DNA from: a virus | Direction: 5' to 3' (one strand) | Length of the DNA stretch: 51,238 nucleotides | Virus record (IMG/VR): IMGVR_UViG_3300027131_000004 | Location: 1 to 51,238 of that record | Part shown: positions 8,274 to 47,768 of the stretch, piece after piece | How the letters are laid out: every line of letters starts with the position of its first letter | Numbering within the stretch: position 1 is the stretch's first letter | The notes under the pieces: model-generated | Databases searched by the model: none | What the model was told of the DNA's origin: nothing | The model's input: the letters and a program-made list of their open reading frames with translations, nothing else | Made by a program: the position numbers and the translations under genes

Positions 8274-8304
8274 ACCCGGTCTGCAGGTGCAGCCGGGTTT
8301 TTTG
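8274..8304 (+). terminator. Strong rho-independent terminator between scaffold and capsid genes
   Basis: The outer stem ACCCGG/CCGGGT (8274-8279/8293-8298) continues, after a single T bulge, into the inner stem CTGC/GCAG. Six T residues follow at 8298-8303. It separates the capsid gene transcript from the terminase-portal-scaffold unit. Confidence 0.88.
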
Positions 8305-8329: not shown

Positions 8330-8337
8330 TATATTTG
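8330..8337 (+). promoter_or_regulatory. -7 promoter element for the capsid transcript
   Basis: TATATTTG lies 26 bases after the terminator. The expected start site near 8343 falls just before the first hairpin of the structured leader. The leader to the capsid ATG is therefore about 140 nt, far longer than any other in the window. Confidence 0.6.
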
Positions 8338-8342
8338 CATTA

Positions 8343-8483
8343 TCTATTTGGCAGTACGCCAAGCTCTTACGACCAAGTGTGGTCAGTTTTACAAAAATCA
8401 TTTATTGGATGTGCGGTTTCGCATGCGAGTTCGATTCTCGTAAATGAACCAATTTTATTTTTAACAATTAAAAGTGCATAAAA
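8343..8483 (+). ncRNA. Structured capsid-gene leader with tRNA-like element
   Basis: The inferred leader folds into consecutive local structures. Hairpin TTGGC/GCCAA is at 8348-8362 and hairpin GACCA/TGGTC at 8371-8384. A tRNA-like unit follows at 8398-8451. In it, a 7-bp acceptor-like stem TCATTTA/TAAATGA (8398-8404/8441-8447) encloses a small hairpin TGCG-GTTT-CGCA (8412-8423) and a T-arm CGAG-TTCGATT-CTCG (8426-8440). The T-arm has the canonical TTCRANY loop. Base A and then CCA follow at 8448-8451. There is no D-arm or anticodon arm and the unit is only 54 nt, so it is not a normal tRNA. All pairings were read by eye. The short ORFs here overlap these structures and look spurious. Confidence 0.5.
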
Positions 8484-9833
8484 ATGCCTATTAATCAACC
8501 TTCTGGCGTACAACTTGGTACTGGTGTTGGTCGTCAGTTTGTGAGTGACTTATCACTCTTAAAGCCACAATTCTATGACAAGTTCGTAGAAAAGTATGGC
8601 AACCAGAACTACACTCAGCTTCTTGAGATGATTGGATTGAAAGCTGTAGTACCGGGACGTGAGTTTTTCCACTTTGAGTCTTACGGTAAGCTTCATTCTT
8701 CTATCAAGATTACTGCTGCATCTACTGTATCTGTAACCAACTCTGGTGTTACAGTTACTTTGACTGCTGGTTCTCACTACAATAGTGGTGCTCAATCTCC
8801 AGTTCGTGTAGGTGAAGTTGTTGAAGCTGCATCTTCTGGTGTTCAGTACAAAATCACAGGTGTTAACAAAACAACTGCAGGTGCTCACACAGCTACTATC
8901 GTTCCGTTGAAGAATGCTTCTTCTACTTTGGCTGCTGGTGAAATTTTGTTGTTCCGTGGCGTAACTGAGGCTGGTGAAGCTTCTTCTGCTGCTGACACAA
9001 TTGCTAACCTTACAGAAAAGAAAATCTTCACAACTACCGAGATTCGTGAAGATTACAAAATCACAGACCGTGCTAAGATTGAAGAAATCTACCTGAATTT
9101 TGAAGGTGGTTCTTTCTACACTTACAAAGGTTTGGATGAGGCTGTAAGACGTTTCATGAACAATAAAGAGTTCAAGCTTATCTTCGGTTCTGATGCAGAT
9201 AACATCTCTGGAACTGTAGGTGCTAAAGGTCTTATTCCTCAAATTGAGGCTGGTGGACAAACTTACCAATACGATATCGCTGGTAACACAGTTGGTTTCG
9301 GAATGGAAGATTTCCATAACCTTGTTCGTCAAATTGACTTTAATGGTGGTGCTCAAGAATACCATTTCTTGATGGATTCTTACTTGAGAACTGCTGTTGA
9401 TGACTCTTTGTTCGCTAAATATCAGAATGGTGCTATCGTTTGGGCTAACGCTGGTGGTTCTCAGGATTTGGCTGTTAAATACGGCTTCGATTCTTTGAAG
9501 ATTGACGGTGTTACCTTCCATCTGAAGAAGTACTTGCCTTTCAACTCTGAGGCTATCTACGGACAGTCTTTGGCAAGTAACGGAAACAAATTTGACTTCT
9601 ACGGAGCTTTGATTCCAATGAAAGAAGGACGTGATGCTCAGTCTGGAGATAAAATCCCAGCAGTTCGTATCGTGTCTAACGAAGTTGAGTCAGGTAAGGA
9701 AGTTAAAGTGTGGGAGACTGGTGCTCTTGCTAAGGTTCCGACTTCTGACAAAATGGAATTGAACGTGCATCACATGGCTTACTGCGGATTGCAAGTTTTC
9801 GCAGCTAACCAGTTCATCGTTGTGAAGAAGTAA
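8484..9833 (+). CDS. Major capsid protein
   Basis: A 449-aa protein placed after portal and scaffold, with its own promoter, terminator and long leader. The sequence is rich in Ala, Gly, Thr and Val and beta-rich in the middle (residues ~75-160, likely a surface insertion). It has an N-terminal helical region and a C-terminal segment, NVHHMAYCGLQVFAANQFIV, typical of HK97-fold capsid C-termini. Codon choice differs from its neighbours: most Arg codons are CGT, while neighbouring genes use AGA/AGG, as expected for the most highly expressed protein. HK97 fold is inferred from context. Confidence 0.85.
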   Translation: MPINQPSGVQLGTGVGRQFVSDLSLLKPQFYDKFVEKYGNQNYTQLLEMIGLKAVVPGREFFHFESYGKLHSSIKITAASTVSVTNSGVTVTLTAGSHYNSGAQSPVRVGEVVEAASSGVQYKITGVNKTTAGAHTATIVPLKNASSTLAAGEILLFRGVTEAGEASSAADTIANLTEKKIFTTTEIREDYKITDRAKIEEIYLNFEGGSFYTYKGLDEAVRRFMNNKEFKLIFGSDADNISGTVGAKGLIPQIEAGGQTYQYDIAGNTVGFGMEDFHNLVRQIDFNGGAQEYHFLMDSYLRTAVDDSLFAKYQNGAIVWANAGGSQDLAVKYGFDSLKIDGVTFHLKKYLPFNSEAIYGQSLASNGNKFDFYGALIPMKEGRDAQSGDKIPAVRIVSNEVESGKEVKVWETGALAKVPTSDKMELNVHHMAYCGLQVFAANQFIVVKK

Positions 9834-9858
9834 TAGTGTCATAGTTTAATCCCAATGT

Positions 9859-9890
9859 ACCCCTGCAGGTTCTCCTGTGGGGGTTTTTTT
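9859..9890 (+). terminator. Rho-independent terminator after capsid gene
   Basis: An 11-bp stem ACCCCTGCAGG/CCTGTGGGGGT (two G-T pairs) with loop TTCT is followed by seven T residues. It ends the capsid transcript. Confidence 0.9.
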
Positions 9891-9899
9891 ATGCATTAT

Positions 9900-9931
9900 T
9901 TTGTAATAAACCAACAAAATGACTATCTTTG
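9900..9931 (+). promoter_or_regulatory. Promoter with -33 TTTG and -7 TATCTTTG
   Basis: TTTG at 9900-9903 and TATCTTTG at 9924-9931 are separated by 20 bases, close to the Bacteroidota consensus TTTG-N19-TAnnTTTG. It lies 21 bases before ATG 9953. This is one of only two late promoters here with a good -33 element. Confidence 0.72.
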
Positions 9932-9952
9932 TTAGTATTAAACTAAAACGCT

Positions 9953-10852
9953 ATGGCACAAAAAACTAAGAGAACCTTAGATGATAATGGTAATCTTGTT
10001 GTTGAGCAAGAGCCAACAATGGAAACGGCACTAAGCTCAATCACCCTAGAAAAGAAAGAAGTTAAAAAAGAGCCTAAGACTTACGTCTTTAAGCTTATCA
10101 CAAATGCTTCACCTAATGACAAGAAGCAGTTCCCTCCAAGATTTATGTTGGCTAATACCGACATCGTTTTTGATGAGGAGGCTGGTTACAAAAGAGCTAT
10201 GCGATATCTTCCGGGAATCAACACCTTATGGGTTGACGAGCAAGATAATCTCCCTGAGAATATCGTTAACCGCAGACCTTCTATCACTTTTGTAGACGGA
10301 TTCTTATATGTACCCGCTACGGATAGAATGCTTGTAGAGTTCTTGACAAAAAGTAACAGGTGCTTGAATGCGGAGCATAGAGATGCTAATATGCCAGCAA
10401 CATATGAGATTATGAACTTTGAGGCTATCTCAAAGAAGAATATCCAAAATGTAAAGACTAAGCATGAGGCTATGAAGATTGCACTCTCTGCGTCAGAGCA
10501 GTCAATGCTTGAACACATTGATTATCTTGGTATCACTAAAATCAATGCACAGGGGATAGAAAAAGACTCTGATGAGCTTCGTGTTGAGTATGTATCTGTG
10601 GCTGAAAATAGACCAGAATTGTTCCTTAAATCCTACAATAATCCGACTACAAAGGCGTTCCATTTGGTTAAAAATGCCTTGGAGTCTGGAATCCTCACCG
10701 AGAGCATAACTCCGGGTCAGGTTCATTGGGCAGAAAGTAGAGGTTTGGCAGCTGTAATCCCAGCAGGTGAAAAAACAGTTGAATACCTTGTTAAGTTCTG
10801 TTTTAAGGAGGGAGAAGGACAACGCTTCTACGAAAGGCTTAAGGGTCTGTAA
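9953..10852 (+). CDS. Putative virion protein downstream of capsid
   Basis: A 299-aa soluble protein with its own full promoter. The N-terminal ~45 residues are charged and probably disordered. The rest mixes strands (TYVFKLITNASPNDKKQFPP) and helices, with no catalytic motif or membrane segment. Position after the major capsid protein and before the connector genes suggests an abundant head-associated or decoration protein. It could equally be a non-structural head-assembly factor. No named family is recognised. Confidence 0.6.
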   Translation: MAQKTKRTLDDNGNLVVEQEPTMETALSSITLEKKEVKKEPKTYVFKLITNASPNDKKQFPPRFMLANTDIVFDEEAGYKRAMRYLPGINTLWVDEQDNLPENIVNRRPSITFVDGFLYVPATDRMLVEFLTKSNRCLNAEHRDANMPATYEIMNFEAISKKNIQNVKTKHEAMKIALSASEQSMLEHIDYLGITKINAQGIEKDSDELRVEYVSVAENRPELFLKSYNNPTTKAFHLVKNALESGILTESITPGQVHWAESRGLAAVIPAGEKTVEYLVKFCFKEGEGQRFYERLKGL

Positions 10853-10859
10853 TTTGTGG

Positions 10860-10867
10860 TATATTTG
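10860..10867 (+). promoter_or_regulatory. -7 promoter element
   Basis: TATATTTG lies eight bases after the previous stop and 30 bases before ATG 10898. No -33 TTTG at the expected distance. Confidence 0.5.
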
Positions 10868-10897
10868 CCTTATATTACTCAATAAAACACAATTTTT

Positions 10898-11626
10898 ATG
10901 CTTAATGACATGTTAGCAAAAATGGCATCAAAGCTTGGAGCACCCAAGTCAGATGACATGGAACGTGAGGATACGGCTCCAGACCCTAACGGAGAAGATA
11001 ATCCTATTGACAAAAGATACAAGGCTGGTGCAGTAATTTCTAGTTTAAGACCAAAGCTTATTGAAGCTCTTAGAAAGAAAGACCCTAAGAAGTTCGACTC
11101 TTTCATGGAGCAGTATAATACGATACTTAAAGACCAGACTTCTTTGGTTAGACAAGGAAAGTGGGAAGAAGGAAAGAAGAAGCTCATGGAAGCTCAAGAC
11201 TTCGCACAGAAATCTGACCTAGAAACATACTTGTCCCCAGATGAAATCAAGAAGACTTTAGGTAATGATTATGATGCTTTCCTAAAAGCTACTATAGATA
11301 TGGGGCTTGCACAGAACCCAGAAGAAAAGAGTAAAACTCTTGTTGGCTCTAAGGAGCAAGGTAAAGTAGGTGGACTAGGAGATATTAAGTTTGGTAGAAG
11401 ATTTGCTACTATGTTGGCTCCTACTGGTATTGCTGGTGAAGGTTACAGAAAGACATTCAAGTATGACCCTTCAAAGAAGACTGTAGAACTTGACACCGAG
11501 AATACATTCATCTTAGACGATGCTAAGAAGAGAATGAAAGAGTTAGGTCTGTCCAATTTGGATGATTTAATTAAAATGGATGTTTCTGGTAACAAGCCTA
11601 TGATGTTGGCAGGTGAAAGAGAATAA
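10898..11626 (+). CDS. Unknown late protein, possibly head-associated
   Basis: A 242-aa charged protein. The N-terminus is Met-rich, followed by an acidic linker (residues ~20-35) and a Lys/Glu-rich helical region. A Gly-containing segment (GSKEQGKVGGLGDIKFGRRF, ~145-164) follows, then a terminal domain with strands (YRKTFKYDPSKKTVELDT). No enzymatic motif is visible. It is a single-gene unit between its own promoter and a terminator-like hairpin at 11654. Context within the head-to-neck block suggests a virion or assembly role only. Confidence 0.55.
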   Translation: MLNDMLAKMASKLGAPKSDDMEREDTAPDPNGEDNPIDKRYKAGAVISSLRPKLIEALRKKDPKKFDSFMEQYNTILKDQTSLVRQGKWEEGKKKLMEAQDFAQKSDLETYLSPDEIKKTLGNDYDAFLKATIDMGLAQNPEEKSKTLVGSKEQGKVGGLGDIKFGRRFATMLAPTGIAGEGYRKTFKYDPSKKTVELDTENTFILDDAKKRMKELGLSNLDDLIKMDVSGNKPMMLAGERE

Positions 11627-11653
11627 TTGGCTTTCATATTATTAATTCAATAC

Positions 11654-11675
11654 GGGGGGCATTGCCCCCTTTATT
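11654..11675 (+). terminator. Terminator-like hairpin
   Basis: GGGGGGC/GCCCCCT (11654-11660/11664-11670) forms a 7-bp GC-rich stem with a 3-nt loop. A short interrupted T-run (TTTATT) follows. The weak T-run makes partial termination likely. Confidence 0.65.
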
Positions 11676-11686
11676 GTTAAAAATGT

Positions 11687-11694
11687 TAATTTTG
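11687..11694 (+). promoter_or_regulatory. -7 promoter element very close to a start codon
   Basis: TAATTTTG matches TAnnTTTG and ends five bases before ATG 11700. If used, the mRNA would be leaderless or nearly so. Confidence 0.4.
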
Positions 11695-11699
11695 TAGTA

Positions 11700-12341
11700 A
11701 TGGCAACAGTTCAGCAATTATATGACACGACCCAATACCTTATAAACAAGTACGATGGGTCATTTATGTCTCAGGATGAGTTTCTTCAGGCATACAATTT
11801 AGCATCTACCGATTATTTCAATTACTTGATTGACATGTCTTACGCTGTAATGAGTAGAAATAACATATACAGCACTCCGACAAATGCGGATAATCAGACT
11901 ACCGAAACATTATCCCCTTTCTTAGTTTTTGAGCAATTATTAGCTTCCCCTTATAACAAGCCAGCAGACTATGCTAGAGCCATCTATTTAAAGACGGCAT
12001 ATCCCGGTCAGGCTCCTATGAATGGCAAATTTGCAACTAGGATTGAACCAACTGTGCTTGATAGCAAGTTGTATTCCGATATAGATTCTCCTAATGCTGA
12101 AGACCCCGTATATATTGAGTCTGGTGGTAGTTTTTTCTTTTATCCATCTAGCCCCTCTGTTGGTGTTTGGCTTACTTATTACAAAAAGCCTATAAGGAGA
12201 ATTGCTGTAGACGGGACATCTGTTGAATGGGCTGATAATAAAATTAACAATGTTCTATTTCGAGTTCTTGGATACTTAGGTATTAACCTGAAAGACCCAA
12301 GTTTGATTCAATTCGGGAACATCAAAAAGGTTGACGCATGA
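11700..12341 (+). CDS. Putative neck/ring protein 1
   Basis: A 213-aa protein that starts the block of four coupled genes leading to the large tail protein. It has a helical N-terminus (VQQLYDTTQYLINKYDGSF, then FLQAYNLASTDYFNYLI). A beta-rich C-terminal half ends in a short helical motif (LFRVLGYLGINLKDPSLIQF). Small connector or ring proteins in this position assemble under the portal in crAss-like and related podoviruses. Position and length support the call; no diagnostic motif does. The stop overlaps the next start (ATGA). Confidence 0.5.
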   Translation: MATVQQLYDTTQYLINKYDGSFMSQDEFLQAYNLASTDYFNYLIDMSYAVMSRNNIYSTPTNADNQTTETLSPFLVFEQLLASPYNKPADYARAIYLKTAYPGQAPMNGKFATRIEPTVLDSKLYSDIDSPNAEDPVYIESGGSFFFYPSSPSVGVWLTYYKKPIRRIAVDGTSVEWADNKINNVLFRVLGYLGINLKDPSLIQFGNIKKVDA

Positions 12342-20264: not shown

Positions 20265-23200
20265 ATGAATTTTGAACAAAATTTTAGCCCTTTAGACACA
20301 GAGAGTTCCGAGTATCAATCTATAAATATAGTACCACTCGTAGAGCCTATTTCTAATCAAACAGACCAAGAGGAGCCTAAGCTACCTTCACTATCTGAGA
20401 AAGCTAAAGGAGTAAAGGATACTATGCCCCCACAGGTTAAGGCTCCAAACTTTGAGAACCTTAAGCTGACTACATGGAAACAGACTGGTGGTCAAAAAAT
20501 AATTGATGTTGTTATTACTCCTCAGATACAATCTGTATACGATTCATTTAAGTACTCTCAGGATTATATCAATGCTGTAATTAAGGATAAATTAGATACC
20601 CTACCACAACAATCACAAGAAAGAGAAAATCTTAGAGGATATATCTACAAAGCCAATGAGGCTAATACCGTAGAAACAGGTGCTGTCAGAACAGAACTCG
20701 TTTACAATATGATGAACGAATTTTCTGACATTCAAACTAATAATAGAACAAGAGATTCATTTATAAGAAGCCAATATAGTCCAGCGTATCACTCCGAGTC
20801 GAAAGCACTCAGGGATGAGTACGAATCTTCTGAGCTAAAGGGTTTGCTTTCAAAAAGACAATACTCTGCCCTTAAATCTCTTTCATATGGAAAGCAGGCA
20901 GACTATCAAGAATATATCAAGGTTATAACCGATGATAAAGCTTCTGCAGTAGACAAGGAGTTAGCGTTACTTAACCTAGATAGAATAGGAACAGGTATAG
21001 ATTTAGACGCTTCTACTAAACTGATATTTGACGCTAAATCTGGTCAGATTGATAAATCAAAAATCAATGAAGGAGTAAATCTATACAACAAGTCTACATC
21101 AGATTTTGCATCGGTTGACGAAAAGATAAAAACACTTGAGCTTAATAATCCATACAATCTAACAGTAGCTAAAGGGATATTTAATCGTGCTATTCAAAGA
21201 GGATTAGCCGTAGGTGCTTCTGCGGATATATTAAACGTATCATCAGAATCAAGTGGAATAGATTACAACAGACTTGCTGATTTGCAAAGAATGCAACAGG
21301 AAGCAAGAAGTTCAAAAGCATTTGAGGATTGGCATAAGAACCCAACATTTGAAAACTTCTCTAAGAACCCAATAGGAATCATTGCTGAGATGTCTCTTGA
21401 GAGCCTTGTGGCAATGTATTATCATGGTGCTTCAAGGATAGCTGCTGGCGTAACCGCTGGTGCAACCGCTGGTAGTGTTGTTCCGGGTGCCGGAACTGCA
21501 GTAGGTGCTGGGTATGGAGTTATGGCTGGTATGGGTGTAACGTCCTTGAATCTTGAGTATAGCGGTCAAATACTTGAGGGTATAGCAGCTGCAGGGTATA
21601 ACACATCATCTGCGGAGGATTTACAAAAAGCATTTCAGGATAAAGCATTAATAGATAAACTAAAGGCAGACGGATATAAGAAGGGTATACCAGTAGCATT
21701 ATTGGATATGCTCAGTATGGGTGTGGCTGGTAAAATAGTAACTAAAACTGGTAAAACTGTAGGCGGTAAGATTATCGGAGGATTAGCGGAGTTGGGAATG
21801 CAAGCTACTACAGGCATGGCTGGGGAAGCTACAGGTCAATTAGTGGTGTCTGGTAAGATTACCAGCATGGCTGATATATACGCAGAAGGTATGGGTGAGA
21901 TTGGTCCGGGTGTTGTAGAAACTGCATTTGGTACAGTTCAAGAAAACGCTAAAAATAATAAGCCTATTAGCAAAAAAGACTTAGCCATCGTAATAGATGG
22001 TATGGGTCTTCAAAAGGCATACGATAATATAGATGTATTAATTGGTTCTGGGCAAGTAACTGAGCAGGCTGGTCAGCAGTTAAAAGATGAGGCAAAAGCT
22101 TCATTTGAGAAAATGCAGAAGATGCCTCAGTTGCTTTCTGTAGATGCTAAGTCTAAAATCATGGACTTGGTTGACAAGAGAGACGACCTTATTAAGAAGT
22201 CTGAAAATCTTGATGATGTATTTAAGAAAGAAGCAAAAGATTTAGCAGAGCAGTTAAATAAGAAGATACTAGAAATAGCTAACGAAGATATTAGTTCACA
22301 ACAAAAACAGAAAGAAAATGCCATTAAAGAAAGCGGTGGGACTCAGCAAAAAAGCGTTCCAGAAGGCGGTATCAGCCAATATCCGGGAACTGAAAAAGTC
22401 CAAGAACAAGCGACCACAGAAACAGATATTAGCAATCGCCCTATCGGCAGCACGGAAGAAGTAACACCACAGTTTCAAAAGACTGGTCCTATAACTATTC
22501 AATGGGAGAAGTCCCCAGAAGGGAAGGGAGACCCAAGTATTTCTTCTAGAAACCCAATAGTAGTTGAGGCAGCACAGAATCTGAAAGCAGGTAAGATTAG
22601 CAATGAGGAATATCGTGCTACTGTATCTGAGAATAGTCCAATAACGCCTATAACTAGGTTCTTTGACCCAGCTACTGAGCAAGAGGTAACGAATGCATTA
22701 AGCAAAGACAAAGTTGCTAAAGTAAATGCTACTATCTTAGATAATACTACAGTTGGTTTAAGGTTAGACATACCTGCATACTCTAATAATAATACATGGG
22801 TGGTATCTGTGCATGAAGGAGATACTAATGCTGGGAAGGCTATTTCTTATAGAAACGTAGCAAGAATTACAGATGTTACTTTTGGTGTAGAGCCAAAAGC
22901 TGCACTATCTATAGCCTCTGGAGTACCTAAGACTACTATCGGTAGAATGTTTGGGAAGTGGCAGAATATGGAAGGTGCTAACATGGAGCAGCAGGGTGAG
23001 AATGCAAAGAAGATTGTACAAGAAGTGGTAAATAATCCAGAGTGGGTACAGGTTGGAATGAATCCATTCCGACACTCCTATTTCTATGATAGGAGCAGTC
23101 AGCAGATGGGAAGACCTATAAAGTCTGCCCAAGAAGTTGTTCAGATAGGAGGACTTGTGTACGCTAAAAATCCTGAATACGGAAACTGGACAGATGAGTC

Positions 23201-26200
23201 TTACAGGGTAAAAGGAATGCTTGATTCAAAGGGTGCTCCTATTCAATTCCAGACAAGTAATACTGGTGCCAATGAAGTGTCAGATATTACCACACAAATG
23301 AATAAAACGGGTGAGAATGCGTTAGACTTTAAGGTTGACGATGCTGTGAAATCTACTGCAAAGGCAGATGTAAATAATTTGGTTTCAAGACAGGGTAATG
23401 CTGCGACTCCAGCAGTAGTAAATATATCTGACTTCATAGGTAAGCCTATCATGGTAACTATATCAGATGAGCTTACTACAGGTGATATTGTAAATCCAGC
23501 TACAGGGAATGTGATAAAGGGATTGATGGGTGGTATTGGATTTAACTACACACAGGGCAATACTGGTTTTGCTTGGGCATATACAGATGAGGCTACTGCA
23601 CAGGATACTCTGAATGCAGCTAAGGAGATATATAAGAAGAATCCAAGCCTATATCCAGATGGGATAGTCCCTGTTGCTGTTGTTAAGATGGGAACAGAGG
23701 CTATAAACTCAAATGAGGCTGTTTTTAGGGTACTTCTAGACAACCTAAACTCTTTACCAAAGGCTAACCTAAAGAACGCCTATAAGGCTCTGGTTGATGA
23801 TATAAAGCTTAATTTGGACAGGCTTTCAAATCTAGCTAAGACAAAAACATTATCTCCTAGTGAGAGAAATGCATTAAACGGATACAGACAACTAGCACAG
23901 GAATATCTAAAGCAAAATAAGTCCATTCAGGAAGTGGTAACAAATATTGCACAGCTCAATATTAACACAAGACCACTAATAATGGACAGAATAACCGCTG
24001 GTGAGGTTGGATTGCTTACGGATGTAAATAGGCTACGAGCAGATAAACCTGTTACAAAAGCATTGATGCAGGGGCTAGGAAAGGAAGATATTAAGAAAAT
24101 ACACTTAGGATGGATAACAGAACCACTTAGAGACCCTGCAATCAAGAATGTACCAGCTAGGCACGTTATAGGGTTTGTTGGCATAGACGCTACCGCTGAG
24201 ACAATAGAAAGGTCAAACCATCCTAACTACCCATTCTCTTTAAAAGGAAAGGGGCTTGGAGTAGTTGAGAATACAGCACATTTAGCCTCTGTTATGCCTA
24301 CTGCGTATGGTAATGCGGTAAAGAAAATAACTGATGCGGTGGCTGGTAACAAAAAGATTACACCTGCTGAATCTGTTAGTAGAGCTATGCCTTCTGGACT
24401 TGCTAATGCAATTTTCAGAGGAAAGAATATAGTGGAACAGGAATCAGAACTATCTAACTTGATGGGATTCCTAAACCTATCATTCCCGAATGTTACATTC
24501 TTTACAGACCAGCAATCATTTGAAGATATTATCGCATCTCCTGATGTGAAGAAATATGTTAAGGAAGGGGAGATTATTTACGGACTAACTACAGATGGTA
24601 AGATTTACTTAAATCCATCTATAGCTACTGCAAATACTGCAATACATGAGATGGGTCATATCTGGGTAGATTATATCCAGAACATGAAGCCTGAATTATT
24701 TAATAAGGGTATAGAATTAGCAGAGGGAACAGAAGAACTGGAGAAAGCGAAAGCACAGCTTGGTGACAACATAAACGCTAGAAAAGAAGCCCTTGCTATG
24801 CTTATTGGGAATCGTGGAGAAACGATTGTAAACGCTGCAAAGAAATCTAAGTTCAAAGAATGGCTGGTTGGTGTTTGGAAGTTCCTGCAAGAGCAGTTCC
24901 CTTCATTAAGAAACATGAATCCTGAGCAGATTGAATCTTTGACACTTGAACAATTTCTTGGAGGTGCATTAAAAGATATCTTATCAGGCAAACCAATCTC
25001 TGAGGTAAAAGAGGAATATGTGCAGATAGGTGCTGCAGCTCAGAAGATGAGTGATATTGTTCCTTTTGAATCACAATTACCAGAGGGCCCTCAAGGACCT
25101 AAACCAACAGGTGAGGTTGGTCCTGTAAAACAACCTTCTGGTGTTCCAGCTAAAAAGAAGTACGAGTGGGAATCATTTAAGAAACAACCGGGCATTCCGG
25201 GTGAAGAGATGATTAAGACATCCACAGGAAGATATGTGGCTACAGAATCTATGCGTGGTCAGATAATGGATAGAGATAGAACGCTGAAGGAAATTAAAAA
25301 GGCTACTCCTTCTCTATTGTCCAGAATAGTTGCTTCTGTTAAAGTCGGCATATTAGATAATCAGTATAACGTAATAAAACTACTTCAGTCTGTTGGTCGT
25401 TCTGGTGAGTTAGTCAAAGCATATCTTTTGACAAGAAATAGTGCTAGTACTACTGCTATGGCTATGGCTGAGGAGGCGGTAAAAAATATATTTGGCGGTC
25501 TATCCAAAACTAAAAAGTATGTCTTTGGAGATACATCAATATCTGAATATGTCCTATTTAATCAAATGATAGGATACCAAAGGGTAATATCTATTCAGAA
25601 ACAGATGGATGAGACTTATCAATTAATGACTCAGGCGTACAATAATATTAAAAGTGCTTTAGAAAATAATCCTAATGCAGATATTTCTCAAGATTTAAAA
25701 GAGTATAATAGGCATAAAAATAGACTTGTTGAGAATGGAATGATTGATGAGAAAGGTAATTATGTTGGAGAGTCTTTGGATACCGAGTTTGCACTAGGTC
25801 AGGTTACAGCTACACAAGCTTATAATTTATTACAGGAGGTAAGAAGTACTATTGGAGAAGAGGATTTCGCACAGTTGATGACTCGTTCTGAGGCATATAG
25901 CCAATACTTCAACTCAATGATGAAGAGTAGAATGGAGGCTGGATTAATTTCTCAGGATACCTATAACTATTTATCTAAATTCTTCTACGCACCAACAAGG
26001 TATATAAGCTCTATTATAGCAGACCCTATCTTATCTATGGCTCGTCCAACGACCTCTTATTCTAATGACAGGAGCCTTAAGATGAAGCAACTAAAGGGTG
26101 GTAGCGAAAGACTAAACGCAAGTGATTACGAGGGTTTATTAAAAGGAATCATATACGCTTCAGAGTATTCTATTGCCGAGAATAGGGCAACAAACAGATT

Positions 26201-28607
26201 CTACAATTTAGTTGATGAGAACAAAGATGCATTTGAAGAAGCTGGAATACGAGTAGGCACTAAGTATGTTTTGGTTGAAGAAAGCAATCAGCTTCCTGCT
26301 GAAGATGCTATAGACCTGAACATGAAAGCCATCTCAGAAGGTAAGAAACCAGAGGGGACTAAAGAATTACCATCTGGTCAAAAGCAACTGCCTTACAAGG
26401 GAATAGAAAAGGCTGGTAGTAATATAGTAAAATCAAATGAACCTACTACTGGTATAAAAACAAAAGGAGCTGAAACTGTAGATGCTGAGGTTATAGTGGA
26501 TGAAGATGGAAATAGATTTTACGCAGTTCAGGTTCCGCTAAAAGAAGGGGAAGACTACATAAAGACATACTTTAATGGACAGAGAAAAGATATCATTGTA
26601 CCTAAATGGTTTGCAGAAGCTTGGAACAATGATAACCTAAAGAGTTCTCCTACTATTACTTGGGTGGGTAAACTAACTGGTGCTAACTTACTGAGAGTTA
26701 TCGCAACTGGTATCAACCCTGTCTTTGGTGTGGCACAGCTTATACCAGATACCATTTCTGCTTATGCTGCAACAGTTGGTGAGAGAAAATACTTACCATT
26801 ACTTATAGATTATCCTAAGTTTTTCATTAAAACACTTGCAGCTGGTAAGGATATTAGCAAGAAGACCCCAGACTACATAGAGGCTACAAAATATGGTGCC
26901 ACCACAAATTTCTATAATGGAGGTTCTGTAGAGTTTGAGAGAGGTCTTCTAGGAAAAGAAGATAAATCTCTTGAGAAGATTATAGAAGAATGGAATGTTC
27001 CGGGACTAAAGCAATACATACTTGGCTCTAAGAAAATTACAGAAACTACGGAGCAGATGACTAAGGTTGCTTTATACAGAAGTATCAGAGATGGAAAAAT
27101 TGCCGAGTACAAGAATCAGTTTGGCTCTGAGCCTACTAGTCAGGATTTAGAAGATATTAGAATAGAATCTGGTGCATTAGCACGTTCAACCGCAGACTTC
27201 CATAGAAAAGGTACATATGGCTCTGACTTGAATAAAGTTATTCCTTACTTGAATGCAGCTATTCAGGTTCAACGAGCTGTGCTTGGTTCAGCTAAACAGA
27301 ATAAATCTAAGACCTTATACTACAGTATGGAGTTTGCAGCGTATACTACACTACTGCTCCTTTCGGCTATAGGTATGGGTGATGACGATGAAACGAAAGA
27401 GAAGAAGCGTTTAGCATACTCAAAATGGTCTGATTTTGATAGGGGTAATAGGGTTCCTTTATTCTTCATTGAATCACAGAATAGATTTATAAGTGTAAAA
27501 CTCCCTGAGTTTTTAGTTCCTATCAATACTTTAGTAAGCAAGTCTATACAGAGAGGAGTTCTTGAGCAAAATCTTGAGTACTCTGATGTAAACTTCGCAA
27601 AAGACATGAAAGAAATCACCATGTCTGTTATGGAGGAGTTTCCTGTAACACAGTTTGCTAATGTAGAGAAGGTTCTGTCAAGAAACCCAATGTACTCCGG
27701 AATGAGTAAGTTCTTTATGAACAGAGACCCATATAGGCAAGAGGAAGTTGTTGCATTTGAGAAGTCCACTAAAGACTACCTTGAAGGTGCAAGAATTGGT
27801 GAAAGAAGGGCAGCTGATATCTACCAAAGAATTGGTAAGGCTAGTATGAGTCCTATACTTCCAGAGGGTATATCTCCTAAAAGATTAGAAGCAGCGGTAA
27901 ATTCTATACCTTTTGAAAACAACCCATTTAGTGGCGTACTGGTATATGCAACTGAACTGGCTACAGATGAGAAGAAGCTATTTGAGGAGAGATACGGGAA
28001 AGGTGCTCTAATGCAAATCCTTAAAGCTTCTGGAATATCTCAGAGATATTTCAAGGAGGGTTCTAAGGTTAATCAAGGATTGACAGACAACTCAATAAAC
28101 GAGATAAAGGATAGAAGCGAATTCAAGGATTTACTCGCTAAGTCTATAATACCTAAGTTTGATAGCCTAGCCACTACCATGACTCGCAGAGAGGCGTATC
28201 TGGCTGTAAAAGATGATTTTATAAAGAGCCAGTATAAGAGCTTAGACCCTGAGCAAAAGAAGATTGCTAGGACTTGGTTTGATGGGGAATTTGTGAATAT
28301 GGCTAAACGAGATGTACAAGACCCGATGATTCAGCAGATTCTGGGAATGACTACTGCGGATGCCAAGCTAGACGCAATAAACGAAACGCTTCAGACTATT
28401 AAGCAGACAGACTCATCTAAAATAGAGTTTCTGAAAACCTTGTACGATAAGGGCCTTATGAAGACGGGAGATATAGGAACAAGGTTAAATCAAAGGGGTA
28501 TGAGGATTAAGAATAATGGAGAACCGAACCCTTACTTTGAGCCAGAGATTGGCTATATACGGGATGAGATGAAAAGGATAGTGGAACAGCTAAGAGCTAA
28601 CAAGTAG
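20265..28607 (+). CDS. Giant polyvalent virion protein with zincin motif and LPD38-like region
   Basis: A 2780-aa protein, about one sixth of the window. N-terminal ~390 residues: helical. Residues ~390-440: a Gly/Ala-rich hydrophobic stretch that could enter membrane. Residues ~750-1100: segments resembling recurring domains of phage large polyvalent proteins (LRLDIPAY, then SYRNVARIT; RHSYFYDRSSQQMG; PIMVTISDELTTGD). HEMGH lies at 1461-1465 in AIHEMGHIWVDYI, a zinc-peptidase helix. Residues ~2150-2420 resemble LPD38, including ALARSTADFHRKGTYG (~2303-2318), with a hydrophobic segment near 2350-2375. Such proteins are packaged and ejected into the host with the DNA. I looked for DxDGD-type RNA polymerase motifs and saw none. 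Confidence 0.75.
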   Translation: MNFEQNFSPLDTESSEYQSINIVPLVEPISNQTDQEEPKLPSLSEKAKGVKDTMPPQVKAPNFENLKLTTWKQTGGQKIIDVVITPQIQSVYDSFKYSQDYINAVIKDKLDTLPQQSQERENLRGYIYKANEANTVETGAVRTELVYNMMNEFSDIQTNNRTRDSFIRSQYSPAYHSESKALRDEYESSELKGLLSKRQYSALKSLSYGKQADYQEYIKVITDDKASAVDKELALLNLDRIGTGIDLDASTKLIFDAKSGQIDKSKINEGVNLYNKSTSDFASVDEKIKTLELNNPYNLTVAKGIFNRAIQRGLAVGASADILNVSSESSGIDYNRLADLQRMQQEARSSKAFEDWHKNPTFENFSKNPIGIIAEMSLESLVAMYYHGASRIAAGVTAGATAGSVVPGAGTAVGAGYGVMAGMGVTSLNLEYSGQILEGIAAAGYNTSSAEDLQKAFQDKALIDKLKADGYKKGIPVALLDMLSMGVAGKIVTKTGKTVGGKIIGGLAELGMQATTGMAGEATGQLVVSGKITSMADIYAEGMGEIGPGVVETAFGTVQENAKNNKPISKKDLAIVIDGMGLQKAYDNIDVLIGSGQVTEQAGQQLKDEAKASFEKMQKMPQLLSVDAKSKIMDLVDKRDDLIKKSENLDDVFKKEAKDLAEQLNKKILEIANEDISSQQKQKENAIKESGGTQQKSVPEGGISQYPGTEKVQEQATTETDISNRPIGSTEEVTPQFQKTGPITIQWEKSPEGKGDPSISSRNPIVVEAAQNLKAGKISNEEYRATVSENSPITPITRFFDPATEQEVTNALSKDKVAKVNATILDNTTVGLRLDIPAYSNNNTWVVSVHEGDTNAGKAISYRNVARITDVTFGVEPKAALSIASGVPKTTIGRMFGKWQNMEGANMEQQGENAKKIVQEVVNNPEWVQVGMNPFRHSYFYDRSSQQMGRPIKSAQEVVQIGGLVYAKNPEYGNWTDESYRVKGMLDSKGAPIQFQTSNTGANEVSDITTQMNKTGENALDFKVDDAVKSTAKADVNNLVSRQGNAATPAVVNISDFIGKPIMVTISDELTTGDIVNPATGNVIKGLMGGIGFNYTQGNTGFAWAYTDEATAQDTLNAAKEIYKKNPSLYPDGIVPVAVVKMGTEAINSNEAVFRVLLDNLNSLPKANLKNAYKALVDDIKLNLDRLSNLAKTKTLSPSERNALNGYRQLAQEYLKQNKSIQEVVTNIAQLNINTRPLIMDRITAGEVGLLTDVNRLRADKPVTKALMQGLGKEDIKKIHLGWITEPLRDPAIKNVPARHVIGFVGIDATAETIERSNHPNYPFSLKGKGLGVVENTAHLASVMPTAYGNAVKKITDAVAGNKKITPAESVSRAMPSGLANAIFRGKNIVEQESELSNLMGFLNLSFPNVTFFTDQQSFEDIIASPDVKKYVKEGEIIYGLTTDGKIYLNPSIATANTAIHEMGHIWVDYIQNMKPELFNKGIELAEGTEELEKAKAQLGDNINARKEALAMLIGNRGETIVNAAKKSKFKEWLVGVWKFLQEQFPSLRNMNPEQIESLTLEQFLGGALKDILSGKPISEVKEEYVQIGAAAQKMSDIVPFESQLPEGPQGPKPTGEVGPVKQPSGVPAKKKYEWESFKKQPGIPGEEMIKTSTGRYVATESMRGQIMDRDRTLKEIKKATPSLLSRIVASVKVGILDNQYNVIKLLQSVGRSGELVKAYLLTRNSASTTAMAMAEEAVKNIFGGLSKTKKYVFGDTSISEYVLFNQMIGYQRVISIQKQMDETYQLMTQAYNNIKSALENNPNADISQDLKEYNRHKNRLVENGMIDEKGNYVGESLDTEFALGQVTATQAYNLLQEVRSTIGEEDFAQLMTRSEAYSQYFNSMMKSRMEAGLISQDTYNYLSKFFYAPTRYISSIIADPILSMARPTTSYSNDRSLKMKQLKGGSERLNASDYEGLLKGIIYASEYSIAENRATNRFYNLVDENKDAFEEAGIRVGTKYVLVEESNQLPAEDAIDLNMKAISEGKKPEGTKELPSGQKQLPYKGIEKAGSNIVKSNEPTTGIKTKGAETVDAEVIVDEDGNRFYAVQVPLKEGEDYIKTYFNGQRKDIIVPKWFAEAWNNDNLKSSPTITWVGKLTGANLLRVIATGINPVFGVAQLIPDTISAYAATVGERKYLPLLIDYPKFFIKTLAAGKDISKKTPDYIEATKYGATTNFYNGGSVEFERGLLGKEDKSLEKIIEEWNVPGLKQYILGSKKITETTEQMTKVALYRSIRDGKIAEYKNQFGSEPTSQDLEDIRIESGALARSTADFHRKGTYGSDLNKVIPYLNAAIQVQRAVLGSAKQNKSKTLYYSMEFAAYTTLLLLSAIGMGDDDETKEKKRLAYSKWSDFDRGNRVPLFFIESQNRFISVKLPEFLVPINTLVSKSIQRGVLEQNLEYSDVNFAKDMKEITMSVMEEFPVTQFANVEKVLSRNPMYSGMSKFFMNRDPYRQEEVVAFEKSTKDYLEGARIGERRAADIYQRIGKASMSPILPEGISPKRLEAAVNSIPFENNPFSGVLVYATELATDEKKLFEERYGKGALMQILKASGISQRYFKEGSKVNQGLTDNSINEIKDRSEFKDLLAKSIIPKFDSLATTMTRREAYLAVKDDFIKSQYKSLDPEQKKIARTWFDGEFVNMAKRDVQDPMIQQILGMTTADAKLDAINETLQTIKQTDSSKIEFLKTLYDKGLMKTGDIGTRLNQRGMRIKNNGEPNPYFEPEIGYIRDEMKRIVEQLRANK

Positions 28608-31073: not shown

Positions 31074-34000
31074 ATGAGAATTTTAGCTAACTTAAACGTA
31101 GTTGGCACGCTGGACTTAGATTCAGTAGCCAATGCTGGTGTAGATACAGATAGGTTTTTAGTACAGGATTCTAACGGTGTTGTAAGATATAGGACGGGTG
31201 CGGAAGTAGCATCCGACATTGGAGCTTCCAACCTTGCTGCATCTGTGCTGAAGCATCAAGTAAAACTCGGAGAAGCTATAGCTAAAGGTCAAGCAGTATA
31301 CGTTTCATCTTCCGATGGAACTAATATGATTGTATCTAAGGCATCAAATGCGTCAGAAGCTACTTCATCAAAAACGCTTGGATTACTAGAAACAGGGGGT
31401 GCATTAAACGCACAGGTGAATGTTATTACAGAGGGTTTGCTGGCTGGTCTAGATACATCTACTGCAGTCGCTGGAGACCCTGTATGGCTTGGAACTAATG
31501 GTAATCTTATTTTCGGTTTAAATAATAAGCCTTACGCACCTGCACATTTAGTGTTTGTGGGTATTGTAACAAGAGTTCAGCAAAACAACGGAGAGATTTT
31601 CATTAAGCCACAAAACGGCTTTGAGTTAAGAGAAATTCACGATGTACAGATAACTACTACTCCTAATAACAATGAGGTTTTGTCTTATGAGACATCTTCT
31701 TCATTGTATAAGATGAAGTCTATCCCAACATTGCTTGGTTACACTCCGGCTGATTCGGCTAGGATTTTAACAATAAATGGCACAGCACACGACCTATCGG
31801 CAAATAGAACATGGAACGTAGGTACAGTTACATCTGTCGGTCTCTCAGTACCAACTGGATTTGCTATAGGTAGTTCACCTGTTACTGGTAGTGGAACTCT
31901 TGCTCTATCATTTGCAGCAGGATATAGTTTACCTACAACAGCATCTCAGTCTAACTGGGATACAGCATATAGTAACAGGATTACTTCACTAACTACAACT
32001 GGTACAAGTGGTGCAGCTACTTTATCAAGTAATGTATTAAATATACCTAACTATACACTTGCTGGATTAGGCGGTGTTAGCGGTTCTGGTACAACAAATA
32101 CATTGCCTAAGTTTAGCTCATCTACTGGTCTTACTGATAGCATTATAAGAGAAGTGAGTGGTAGTAGATTACTGATAGGTACAGGTACCGTAGATGACAC
32201 TACAAGCATTATTCAAACTAACGGAGAGATAAGAGCTGTACATTTAACTCTTAGTGGTGCAGTAAGTAGTAATACTAACCTATGGATTAAATCTGTAACA
32301 GGATTCTTAGGACAGATTATCTATATGAATAATTCTAATATGACATTTGCCCTACGGGACAATGCTACATATTGGGATGTTTATTCTTATGTTACTGGTA
32401 GTGCTGGACAGAAGCTCATTGTATATGCTAATGGTACAGTTAAATTACCGGGCTATACTTCTAACGGATTTTTAAAGACATCAGCTTCTGACGGAACGCT
32501 GGTTGTTGACACAAATACATATTTAACGGGTAATCAGAGTATCACACTTAGTGGTGATGCTACAGGTTCTGGTACTACTTCTATTGCGGTAACACTTTCA
32601 AATAGCGGGGTTACTGCTGGAACATATCGTTCTGTAACAGTAGACTCGAAGGGTCGAGTAACTGCTGGTACTAATCCTACTACAATATCTGGATATGGTA
32701 TCACAGATGCTTACACTAAGACAGAGATAAACAACTTCTTCTCTGGTACTACTGCAATTACGGGGTATAATAAATCAAACTGGGATACTGCATTTGGTTG
32801 GGGGAATCATGCCTCACAGGGGTATGCTACTACCAGCTATGTTACAACTCAGATTAATAACCTTGTTGCTGGTGCACCCGGATTACTTGACACTCTGGAT
32901 GAGTTAGCAGCAGCTTTGGGTGATGACCCGAACTTTGCTACTACAGTAACTACTGCTCTTAGCAATAGGCTTCGTGTAGATACTGCTACTCAGGGGTTGA
33001 CTAGCACGCAACAATCTAATGGTAGAACTAACTTGGGACTTGGTAGTTTGGCTACCTTAAGTTCTATAGGCAATTCATATATCACAGACCTTGCTTGGTC
33101 TAAAATTACTGGTGCTCCTAGCTTTTTAACTGCTGAGGCTGATACGTTAGCAAGTGTTACTGGACGAGGTGCTACTACATCTAGTGCAGTTACATTTAAT
33201 GCAGGAATAACTGTTAATGGTACAGCACATAGTATCTTTAATAAACCATCAACATCTGCATATCAGACGGTATCATTATTTGGGACAAGCGGTGGAGGGG
33301 TATTTATAACATCAGATAATGCCATTGTGGGCAGAGGTGCATACTATAATAGCGGTTGGATTGCTACCGCTACGAGTGGAGCAGCCTTAGATTTTACTGC
33401 CATTTCTGGAGGGGTAGGAATATTTTATTTTACAGGAGCAACTGTTGGTGGTGCTCCTACAATGAGTGCTACATATACTCTTTATCATACTGGTAATCTA
33501 ACTAACTTAAATCAGTTAACAAACGGTCCGGGTTATATTACAGGAAACCAAAACATTACTCTAAGTGGTGATGTAACAGGAAGTGGAGCCACATCTATAG
33601 TAACGACTATTGCAAATAATGCAATAACTACTGCTAAGATTAATAATGGTGCAGTAACCGCTGCAAAACTTGCAACATTTGGAGCAGGTGAAGGATTATC
33701 TTGGGCAGCTAATACAGATGGGGCTTCTATCATATTTGAATCTACTGGTGATGGAGCTAGTGGTGGTAGGGCTTTGTCAAACCTTCTTATTGCTCTTACT
33801 GATAATGGAGACGAAGGATTAAAAGTTACCTCAGCTGGTGCAGAGCTGTTTTATGTAAATACTAACCAGCTTCAGTACAAGGGGAATAATATATGGACAG
33901 CTGCAAATCTTACTAACCTTAACCAGTTAACGAATGGTCCGGGGTATATCACATCTTCTGGTAGTATTACAGGTTCAGCTGGGTCTTTATCTGATGACTC

Positions 34001-37000
34001 TGGATATATTAGAACTAGGGGTGGTGGTACTGAAGCAAACATAGATACATATACCGACAATGGTGTACGTTCAATAGCATTTACAGGTTATTCACAGCAT
34101 TTATTAAGCTGGAATGTTGGCGGTTCTCCGGGTACTATTCAGCAGATGTTTCACTATAATACTCCAGCTAATGGATGGAGAATAAGGAACAAAACAGACA
34201 ATAACACTTGGTCTTCTTGGGGTTATGTAGTTATGACATCTGCAAACCAAGGTTTGATTAGCGGAACTATTGCTACACAGTCTTGGGTACAATCTCAGGG
34301 GTATGCGTCAGGTGGTCCTTTTATCCCGGTATCTGCTAATACAAATGCTACTGGTTGGGTTTCTTTCTCTGCTTCAACTCAGGGTACTCCAATAATCAAA
34401 GCTATTCAACAAGATACTGCTTCTGGATATTATTTATTCCAAGGCGTAACTGGGAGTACAGAGGTGTACAGGGTGGACAGGGGTGGTAGTGCTTATTTTG
34501 GGGGTACTATTCAAACAGACGGTAACATCTATATATCAAACAATGGTGGGCGTTTATATTTCGATAGACCCAATGGAGCTACTGTAGGTGCAGTAGGTTG
34601 GCATACTAACGATGTGTTTTATTTAGGAGGTCATCCAGATTATGGACCCGGAGCAGGGAATACTGTACGAGTGTACGGATTTGGCTCAGACCTTAGCCTT
34701 GGTAATGCAAATGCGGGAGATGTTATAACTATTAGCAATAGTGGTGCGATAACAACCAACTATGCTATTACTGCTAACAATAAGATTTACCTAAACAGCA
34801 GTAATACTGCTGGAAGTTGGGGGTATGCTGGCTTATTTGTAGATAGGAATAACGCTGCCAATAACTATATACCATTCTCATTTGAAAGCCAATACGGTAA
34901 CCACTCTTGGGGTATTGTTGCAAGATACCATATACAAACAGGTGGTCAAGATAAACCATCTATTCAATTTACTTCAACTGGAAGTAACGACAGATGGAGT
35001 TTAGGTTTTTGTTCAGGTAGTGACTGGAATTTCCGTATTACTCAAAACCAAGGATATAGAACTGATAATTCAGGACAAGATGGTTGGGGTACTGAAAGAT
35101 TTAAAATAGATACATCTGGTAATACATATGCTGCCATAGGAGGAACATTATACGCAAACGGTACGCAAGTTATAACTAATAATGGAGGTACTTGGAACAT
35201 TAATGTTACTGGTACAGCTAATTCTGAGACTCTTGCTACAGTAGTATCAAGAGGAAGTTTAACTACAAATACAATAAATGTTTCAGAAACTACAGGTGGA
35301 GGTTTTATGTACCGCACAAATAGTTCATGGGGTGGATGGGCTAGACATGGATTTTCGTTTGGGAACGGTTCAGGTACAGTAATGAAAGCATTTGGTGCAT
35401 ATGGAGATTCCGGTGCATCTTTGTCTTATATGTACTTAGGTACAGACTATTCAACTAACACACTTCGTGTTTATGATAACTATGTGTATATACCGGGCCT
35501 TGACTTAGCAATATCCAATGCAAATAGTAGTCACTCAAGAGGAAATTATTTTAGAGGTAGCTCAAGTCATTTAGTTATTGGTACAGGTGGAACGCTTTAC
35601 TTAAACTATGGTAATACTAGCGGTGAAACACGCATTGATGGAACTACATATATCAATAATGCAATAGCATTACATGCCAATAACTATAACTCCTACGCCC
35701 CTACATTAACTGGTGGAGGAGCTTCTGGTACTTGGGGTATTAGTATTACAGGAAATGCTGCTACACTAGGTGGATATGGACCTAATCAAACTGGGGGAGC
35801 CTATACTATAGTTCAAAGAGATGCAAATGGATATATACAGAATTCATATTTCTATATGTCGGGTGGAGGTTCTGAAAGAAACTCTTCCGGTCTTGGATAT
35901 ATAGCAGGTTTTAACTCTAGCGATTACTATGTAAGAAGTTATAACTCAACAGCAGTAGCTTCCTTCTTGGGGCTTGGCTCAATGGCATATCAAAATACAG
36001 GCTCCTACTATACTACCTCTAACTCAATCTATACTAATGCTGGTAATTTTACAACAGCTGGAACAGGTTGGTATAGGGTAGCGACTACAGGAAGTGATGG
36101 AAGGGGAACATATTATGTTGAAGTATATACTACTGGAGGAAACCATAATCCATCTTATTTGAAGATATTAGCTCATGGTGATTGGGGCAATGACAAACTG
36201 GTTACCGTAGAAACTGATGGTGGATTCCCAGCAAGTGCGGTAAGAATAACAAGGGGGGCTAGTAATACATTCTTAGAAGTATACTTTACAACCACAATTC
36301 TAGGTGCTAGTTTAAGAGTTAATAGATTAGGATTTGATAGCTCTGTTCAGATATATACAGGAGCTCTCCCATCTGGTGGTGATACATTAAAAGACCAACT
36401 ACCAGTTGATTCTAAATTTATAACCCAATCTATAAGTGCAACAAGTAGGATATATGTAGGAAATGGGGGAGAGACACTTGGTCTGATTGGAATGGGAGCT
36501 TCTAATCTATATGGATTAGGTATTTCTGGTGCCTATACTTCTTTATATGGACATTATCAAGGAAATGGTGTTCAGCTGGGTTATTATAATGGTTCTTCGT
36601 TTACGCCTAGATTAATTGTAAATAATGGTGGTGATATAGTTTTAACATCCGGGACTAGTGGTACAACCGGAAAGTTAATCTTTAAAACAACAGATAACTC
36701 AGACCTGAATAAATACATAATGCAGGATGGGTATTGGACTGTAATAGGTACACACTCTAACGAAGGATTAAGAGTAAGAGATTCTGGTGGGAATATATTG
36801 ATAAATATTGCTGGAAGTACAAATGGATACCCAAGCAGAGTTGGTATTGGGACTACCACTCCATCGTATAAGCTTCATGTTGCAGGGGATATATATGCGG
36901 ATGGTGGTTGGATGAGAATATCTGGTACCGCTGGTTTATACTGGGAAACTTATGGTGGTGGTTTTAGAATGACTGGTTCTTCTTATGTAGAAATGTATAA

Positions 37001-40398: not shown

Positions 40399-40437
40399 AA
40401 TCATACCCGTAAAAACAAGGTTTTCAATATATTTTAG

Positions 40438-40445
40438 TAATTTTG
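40438..40445 (+). promoter_or_regulatory. -7 promoter element
   Basis: TAATTTTG lies 32 bases before ATG 40478 in a 79-base gap. The leader between them is A/T-rich (AATTAATAAAAAACGTAAAA), which favours translation in Bacteroidota. Confidence 0.55.
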
Positions 40446-40477
40446 TTTACAACTTCTAATTAATAAAAAACGTAAAA

Positions 40478-40762
40478 ATGAAGACAATTTTAGTAGAGGC
40501 AGCATCTGTAGAACTTAACGGAGCCACTTTGGGAACTGTAAATCAAGTTACCATCAGCGGTGCTGTTGAGCTTTTCGGTACTTCTGGAAATGCTTGGGTA
40601 AGCCTTATGGGTAATGGCGTTAGTCTTGCTAACAAAACAGTTACTATCTCAGAAGGTCTTTCTGAGGCTGGTGCTGATTGGGCGTTAGTTGAGGCTGATA
40701 TCTTAGCTCAACTTGGTTTGACTAAGGCTGCTGACCAGAATCCAGCTCCAACTCAACCTTAA
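40478..40762 (+). CDS. Small beta-rich protein, possibly abundant (decoration candidate)
   Basis: A 94-aa protein with its own promoter and an A-rich leader. The sequence is Ala/Gly/Val/Thr-rich with regular strands (KTILVEAASVELNGATLGTV; NKTVTISEGLSE). A helix and a Pro/Thr/Gln tail (QNPAPTQP) follow. It has no Arg. Codons favour GCT, GTT and CTT, as in the capsid gene, which suggests high expression. Size, composition and codon use fit a capsid decoration or other abundant virion protein, but it is far from the head genes and no family is recognised. Confidence 0.6.
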   Translation: MKTILVEAASVELNGATLGTVNQVTISGAVELFGTSGNAWVSLMGNGVSLANKTVTISEGLSEAGADWALVEADILAQLGLTKAADQNPAPTQP

Positions 40763-40813
40763 TTAGCTATACATAGCTAAAAATGACTGACGAATAATCA
40801 GAACGGATATACT

Positions 40814-41029
40814 ATGCATAAAATCGAAGAGATAGTTAGGTCTTGGGCTAGTGCTATTAAAAGCACAGAAGAGGAGGAAAAGAGGGCTTCTGTAAGGTTG
40901 CAGATATGCTCTATCTGTGAACATAAAAAGGAAGCAGTATTCGGGAGCTATTGTGGTAAGTGTGGGTGCCCTCTAAAAGCTAAAGTCTTCACTCCGATGA
41001 TTCCGGGATGTCCTGAAAAAAAGTGGTAA
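40814..41029 (+). CDS. Small zinc-ribbon-like protein (Cys-rich)
   Basis: A 71-aa protein. A helical, charged N-terminus precedes a Cys cluster: CSICEHK, then YCGKCGCPLKAK and a terminal GCPEKKW. The CxxC...CxxCxC...C arrangement fits a small zinc ribbon. Similar small Cys-rich phage proteins occur in many Bacteroidota and cyanophage genomes (DUF6171-like, from memory). Function unknown; nucleic-acid or protein binding is usual for such folds. Confidence 0.65.
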   Translation: MHKIEEIVRSWASAIKSTEEEEKRASVRLQICSICEHKKEAVFGSYCGKCGCPLKAKVFTPMIPGCPEKKW

Positions 41030-41034
41030 TTTTT

Positions 41035-41066
41035 TTTGGTTGTATAAAACCACATTATTACTTTTG
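41035..41066 (+). promoter_or_regulatory. Promoter with -33 TTTG and -7 TACTTTTG
   Basis: TTTG at 41035-41038 and TACTTTTG at 41059-41066 are spaced by 20 bases. ATG 41087 lies 20 bases further. This is the other late promoter with full consensus geometry. Confidence 0.7.
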
Positions 41067-41086
41067 TAGAAATAAAAGGTTAAACA

Positions 41087-41539: not shown

Positions 41540-41563
41540 TTGTGAGAATGGGTTAGAATGAAT

Positions 41564-41591
41564 AGGGGTGCCTCTGGCACCTCTTTTTTTT
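41564..41591 (+). terminator. Rho-independent terminator
   Basis: A 9-bp stem AGGGGTGCC/GGCACCTCT (one G-T pair) with loop TCT is followed by seven T residues. It separates the unknown 150-aa gene from the lysis cassette. Confidence 0.87.
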
Positions 41592-41661
41592 GCCTTGCAC
41601 CTACTTTTTAACTTTGCATGAAAATTTTTTGAAAATTCATGCATTTATTAACTAACCTTTA

Positions 41662-41669
41662 TATATTTG
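41662..41669 (+). promoter_or_regulatory. -7 promoter element of the lysis cassette
   Basis: TATATTTG lies 19 bases before ATG 41689. The 70 bases between the terminator and this element are AT-rich with an inverted-repeat-like AAAATTTTTTGAAAATT near 41620-41636, which could be a regulatory site. Confidence 0.6.
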
Positions 41670-47767: not shown

Positions 47768-47768
47768 C

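Follow-up and report, generated by a model that had tools for sequence, protein, structure and literature searches.

The window, the complete 51,238-nt stretch of IMG/VR virus record IMGVR_UViG_3300027131_000004, contains a major capsid protein (MCP) gene preceded by a long untranslated leader (Table 1). The MCP product matched phrog_13704 virion structural protein (E 2.5e-34) and, distantly, a protein of Cellulophaga phage Calle_1 annotated as structural/major capsid protein. Relatives of the TerL and capsid proteins belong to phages that infect Flavobacteriia, making a Bacteroidota host likely. Elsewhere in the window, a Chitinase class I (GH19) domain (42535-43131) marks a probable endolysin, a replication block on the minus strand (46156-51047) comprises exonuclease/PDDEXK, ERF recombinase, deoxynucleotide monophosphate kinase and BT4734-like primase/DnaB helicase genes, and two very large reading frames (20265-28607 and 31074-39281; 2780 and 2735 aa) are probably virion-associated.

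Transcription unit of the capsid gene and its relatives

Searches of viral contigs with the capsid protein retrieved largely overlapping sets of 42, 53 and 20 loci. The leader was identical to that of the window in four contigs, and homologous leaders were identified at the loci L005 (capsid 94% identical) and L006/L007 (87-88%). Comparisons were thus made between three divergent phage lineages, with MCPs 87-94% identical and four-fold sites 61-69% identical. In all relatives with capsid identities of 69% or less, the capsid gene starts ~25-40 nt past the upstream stop codon and is preceded by neither promoter nor leader, indicating that the combination of terminator, promoter and leader is confined to this clade.

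A Bacteroidota-type promoter box was found at the matching position in the relatives, as TATATTTG in L005 and TATCTTTG in L006. According to PMC9723704, the TAnnTTTG motif of Flavobacterium is located at -12 to -5, which would place the capsid transcription start near 8342 and predicts a leader of 142 nt, compared with a median 5' UTR of 24 nt given there for F. psychrophilum. The remaining TAnnTTTG promoters in the window lie near their start codons. Such boxes were noted at 9924, 10860, 11687, 40438, 41059, 41609 and 41662 (regions 9834-11700 and 40399-41689); as they occur in most intergenic gaps, the phage apparently depends on promoters of the host sigma-A type.

The terminator upstream of the promoter was absent from the output of a simple terminator scan, probably because its stem is bulged; analogous terminators occupy the same position in L005 and L006, which also have hairpins analogous to the terminator 3' of the capsid gene. 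From its own promoter and a terminator on each side, in every lineage, the MCP mRNA is predicted to be monocistronic.

Table 1 Features of the capsid transcription unit (window coordinates)
Feature	Position	Strand	Sequence or remarks
Intrinsic terminator of upstream (portal/scaffold) operon	8274..8304	+	ACCCGG-T-CTGCAGGTGCAG-CCGGGT, then TTTTTT; read from sequence
Bacteroidota sigma-A -7 box	8330..8337	+	TATATTTG (TAnnTTTG); predicted +1 ~8342 (A)
Hairpin H1	8347..8363	+	UUUGGC-AGUAC-GCCAAG; kept in all lineages; G-C to A-U on both sides
Hairpin H2	8371..8384	+	GACC-AAGUGU-GGUC; loop AAGUGY in all lineages
Acceptor-like stem, 5' strand	8398..8404	+	TCATTTA (UCAUUUA); 4/6 conserved pairs with both-side changes among lineages
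UUGG, proposed stem-less D-loop	8405..8408	+	GG putatively docking on T-loop; invariant in 4/4 aligned sequences
Middle hairpin H3	8411..8424	+	GUGCG-GUUU-CGCAU; pairing kept throughout; both-side change in one pair
T-arm	8425..8441	+	GCGAG-UUCGAUU-CUCGU; 3/5 stem pairs changed on both sides
Acceptor-like stem, 3' strand	8441..8447	+	TAAATGA (UAAAUGA); 7 Watson-Crick pairs with 8398-8404
ACCA	8448..8451	+	Discriminator A 8448, CCA 8449-8451; confined to the window's phage species
Spacer up to start codon	8452..8483	+	U-rich then A-rich; start context AAAAATG
MCP gene	8484..9833	+	Sole gene of transcription unit
Intrinsic terminator 3' of capsid gene	9859..9891	+	Strong; 11 pairs, 7 G-C; terminator scan

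Structure and conservation of the leader

The earlier note had described positions 8398-8451 as a 54-nt tRNA-like unit with a 7-bp acceptor-like stem, a T-arm and a terminal CCA, and each of these elements was found where it had been placed. The T-loop (TTCGATT, 8430-8436) sits on CGAG/CTCG plus a G-U pair; the 21-nt connector contains TGCG/CGCA pairing, and H3 is positioned like helix 2 of tmRNA or a variable arm. A scan of both strands of the 51-kb window for a 7-bp acceptor, a 4-bp T-stem and a TTCRANY loop retrieved this single site, and the same acceptor/T-arm pattern occurred in none of 100 first-order Markov simulations using the dinucleotide frequencies of the window. The architecture is not expected by chance. 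Its folding energy is unremarkable (z = -1.27 for the unit and -1.13 for the leader), and thermodynamics by itself would not pick out this region.

The unit forms only the 3' half of a structured 5' UTR that extends over ~8342-8483. H1 begins ~5 nt into the predicted transcript, and no second hairpin of its sequence was found in the phage. In H2, one pair has changed on both sides and another is seen as G-U, A-U and G-C. The loop motifs AGU (H1) and AAGUGY (H2) are invariant across lineages. The two loops (AGURM and AAGUGY) resemble each other and might be tandem sites for one protein.

Five helices, namely H1, H2, the acceptor-like stem, H3 and the T-arm, were present in all lineages in an alignment whose acceptor columns were placed by hand, with N as spacer. 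In this alignment 98% of cells pair and 10 of the 25 pairs have changed on both sides, among them pairs of the acceptor stem and T-stem, so that the check for covariation proposed in the earlier note was passed. None of 500 shuffles reached the observed pairing, slid versions gave 28-47%, and RNAalifold returned the same helices. Because the acceptor columns had been hand-placed, the leaders were realigned automatically from sequence only with MAFFT; the consensus energy had z = -4.6, with 0 of 500 column shuffles as good, and the helices recovered were H1, H2, the T-stem and H3 in part, but not the acceptor. As a check on hand-placement bias, the realignment is limited to the T-arm, H1, H2 and H3. 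Sequence identity between lineages in the part of the leader 3' of H2 is ~52-61%, which does not exceed that of four-fold sites (61-69%); this part nevertheless remains paired, which argues for selection on the fold and not on the sequence. G-U cells favour the mRNA-sense strand.

The T-loop reads U-Y-C-R-A-N-Y in each lineage (UUCGAUU, UCCGACU and UUCAAUU), with C at position 2 in L005; in tRNA, position 2 of the T-loop is U. The acceptor and T-stem have 6+4 or 6+5 pairs in the relatives compared with 7+4 in the window, and the stacks of the two comprise 11, 11 and 10 pairs in the three lineages. At the position of ACCA, L005 has GCUG and L006/L007 have CUAU, so that CCA is not kept; the acceptor end lies 36, 38 and 32 nt from the ATG. 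The 54-nt unit with 7+4 stems and CCA therefore describes the window correctly, but the conserved unit is larger and both the 7+4 stems and the CCA are species-specific.

For the window and L006, an extended hairpin is favoured by 4-5 kcal/mol on nearest-neighbour energies, which leave out tertiary contacts; UUGG is base-paired to the 3' strand of the T-stem in this hairpin. Both-side changes number four for the extended hairpins, all of them in the shared acceptor stem, vs eight for the tRNA-like fold. The extended hairpins are consequently less supported as the conserved structure, and the substitution pattern supports the view that evolution favours the tRNA-like fold. Taken together, the comparative data from three independent lineages provide strong evidence that the leader is a real structured RNA without an Rfam family. 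The tRNA-like reading was thus borne out as a fold conserved upstream of MCP in relatives; H1 and H2, the D-loop-like UUGG, the promoter, the terminators and the covariation of H3 had been overlooked.

Further copies of the leader were sought by several routes. Relaxed H1/H2 pattern searches of viral contigs gave, among the matches listed, the seven known contigs and chance matches; most of the latter were visibly intragenic and, among those listed, none exceeded ~21 bits with the model. A pattern search of genome contigs yielded four chance matches and no further copy of the leader. Among 40 phage records, model R1 detected no further copy, and it had no matches in 297 genomes of the Bacteroidota phylum, a search that lacked a positive control. 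No DNA similarity was found in named phages.

Relation to known RNA classes

The leader is neither a tRNA nor a tmRNA. ARAGORN predicted no tRNA genes, the tRNA model RF00005 did not match, and the conserved fold contains no anticodon arm and hence no cloverleaf. A tRNA-type acceptor stem on a T-arm with a U-Y-C-R-A-N-Y loop is present in all lineages; a 3' CCA is encoded only in the species of the window, and the RNA runs on into the capsid gene. At the Rfam gathering score the leader matched no family. With E up to 10, matches in the window, L006 and L005 were weak and mutually inconsistent, the top related one being tRNA-Sec (19.7 bits, insignificant), and the yjdF model gave no match even at E = 10.

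The closest architectural likeness is to the tRNA-like domain of tmRNA, which also combines an acceptor stem, a T-arm, a stem-less D-loop and a helix placed between the D-loop and the T-arm (PMC3968760); for the leader, the stem-less D-loop is suggested by helix topology and the invariant UUGG. Unlike tmRNA, the leader has no mRNA-like domain with a tag frame, no pseudoknots and no tmRNA match with ARAGORN or Rfam; its middle hairpin is short, its CCA is not conserved and it sits 5' of a coding sequence. With the yjdF riboswitch and leaders made of grafted tRNAs, it shares a tRNA-like fold in a 5' UTR, a GG in the D-loop and the T-loop; for these, ACCA-independent enhancement of translation has been reported (PMC9142559). 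The phage leader differs from yjdF, a riboswitch that responds to azaaromatic ligands, in its junction, in preceding a capsid gene, in its extra 5' hairpins and in having no known ligand. In plant-virus tRNA-like structures such as that of TYMV, viral RNA likewise mimics the tRNA elbow (PMC4810234), but these lie at genomic 3' ends and the TYMV acceptor is pseudoknotted, whereas the leader belongs to the mRNA of a DNA phage and has no pseudoknot. Structured 5' UTRs, many of them without an Rfam family, are also described in a member of the Bacteroidota, Flavobacterium (Flavo-1 and 64 structured 5' regions); these precede cellular genes and, in the available text of PMC9723704, none is described as tRNA-like. 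The conserved fold 5' of a coding sequence places the leader, structurally, among the tRNA-like mRNA leaders.

Possible role in capsid synthesis

Since the fold was kept in related phages while its letters changed, the leader probably helps to make capsid protein. We infer its function with moderate confidence as a whole, and more tentatively, at somewhat short of an even chance, as that of a cis-acting translational enhancer of the capsid mRNA with H1 and H2 as stabiliser or binding sites. The precedent comes from tRNA-like leaders in which cis-tRNAs raised in vitro translation 2- to 6.3-fold and yjdF alone by 60%, in which changing GG to UU in the D-loop-like loop brought enhancement near background, and in which changing ACCA had minimal effect, so that the elbow and not the ACCA end is responsible (PMC9142559). 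The phage leader shares with it the T-loop, the GG, independence of CCA and an A/U-rich spacer, and for this reason the enhancer reading is preferred. The yjdF work was done in an E. coli system on an mRNA with a Shine-Dalgarno sequence (PMC9142559), but Bacteroidota initiate without Shine-Dalgarno pairing, and A-rich starts lacking it are normal in that phylum (PMC6847099).

Ranked behind the enhancer, and in our view unlikely, is a pure mRNA stabiliser, in which the folded leader would shield the capsid transcript from 5'-end-dependent decay and the tRNA-like fold would be merely compact and nuclease-resistant. The strict conservation of H1, so close to the predicted +1, and the monocistronic, terminator-bounded nature of a transcript for an abundant protein are consistent with it, but a generic stabiliser would need neither the T-loop consensus and invariant UUGG nor the conserved loops AGU and AAGUGY. 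Similar conserved loops in H1 and H2, as in tandem binding sites, would suit a two-state regulator, less probable again, in which the leader shifts between the tRNA-like fold and the extended hairpin. Capsid output would then be set through binding at H1/H2 by a ligand or by a phage protein, the capsid protein itself included, in the manner of yjdF or of autogenous control. Every lineage can adopt both folds, and in the window and L006 the extended hairpin is the lower in energy; against this, it shows no both-side changes apart from those in the acceptor stem common to the two folds, and there is no known ligand or binding protein.

The earlier note had raised recognition by the CCA-adding enzyme, EF-Tu and RNase P, but the loss of CCA in the other lineages argues against CCA-dependent recognition, including the 3'-RCCA contact of RNase P, as the conserved function. 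It also weakens a processing signal, by which cleavage at 8398 by host RNase P would separate a small RNA carrying H1 and H2 from a capsid mRNA headed by the tRNA-like fold. The T-loop, a stack of 11 pairs and the ACCA of the window would suit this enzyme; the stack nevertheless falls below the 12 pairs of tRNA and the -1 nucleotide varies (A, A, C), leaving processing improbable. Attenuation of transcription, with the tRNA-like stem and U-runs terminating unless relieved, is more improbable still. A U-rich tract does follow the stem in all lineages, but the stem is A+U-rich, 3-6 nt separate it from the U-run, the terminator scan was negative and the G+C-rich terminators flanking the gene are clearly different. 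Least credible of all is descent from a tRNA gene, either as the remnant of a host gene (att site) or as a decayed phage gene; the class-II-like middle hairpin with its T-arm and the weak tRNA-Sec score recall such an origin, but compensatory change is not decay, no tRNA was found by ARAGORN or RF00005, and no tyrosine integrase (PF00589) exceeded the cut-off in the window and four relatives, a search confined to tyrosine integrases in records that may be incomplete. The remark that a tRNA-derived attP is less likely agrees with our results, and attenuator, att site and decayed tRNA are all disfavoured. One of the contigs with a leader identical to that of the window, IMGVR_UViG_3300027508_000036, has a Phage_integrase match below cut-off (15.2 bits, minus strand; L242, G001:C1:4020-4262), probably outside the region represented by the window.

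As a translational enhancer, the leader would act in cis to raise capsid-protein output from a strong monocistronic transcript. By analogy with tRNA, tmRNA and yjdF, the GG of UUGG may dock on the T-loop, a contact known from the tRNA elbow (PMC4810234), and the resulting elbow, 32-38 nt upstream of the AUG, would favour ribosome loading or initiation, while H2 and H1, the latter right next to the 5' end, might protect the mRNA or bind a partner. A bolder version, possible though rather doubtful, is that the leader is a natural tRNA mimic, independent of any ligand and built like the tRNA-like domain of tmRNA, which drives capsid synthesis by contacting the ribosome of the host (at the E site, for example) or an elbow-binding host factor in a host clade that initiates without Shine-Dalgarno sequences.

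To our knowledge, tests of tRNA-like translation leaders have so far dealt with the yjdF riboswitch and with artificial tRNA grafts. If the enhancer reading is true, a covariation-supported tRNA-like leader before the most abundant virion protein of a phage would be a naturally selected case. It would make addressable, in Bacteroidota, the question of how highly expressed genes recruit ribosomes without a Shine-Dalgarno sequence, and H1, H2 and the tRNA-like domain would provide a compact list of parts for capsid-gene control in uncultivated phages.
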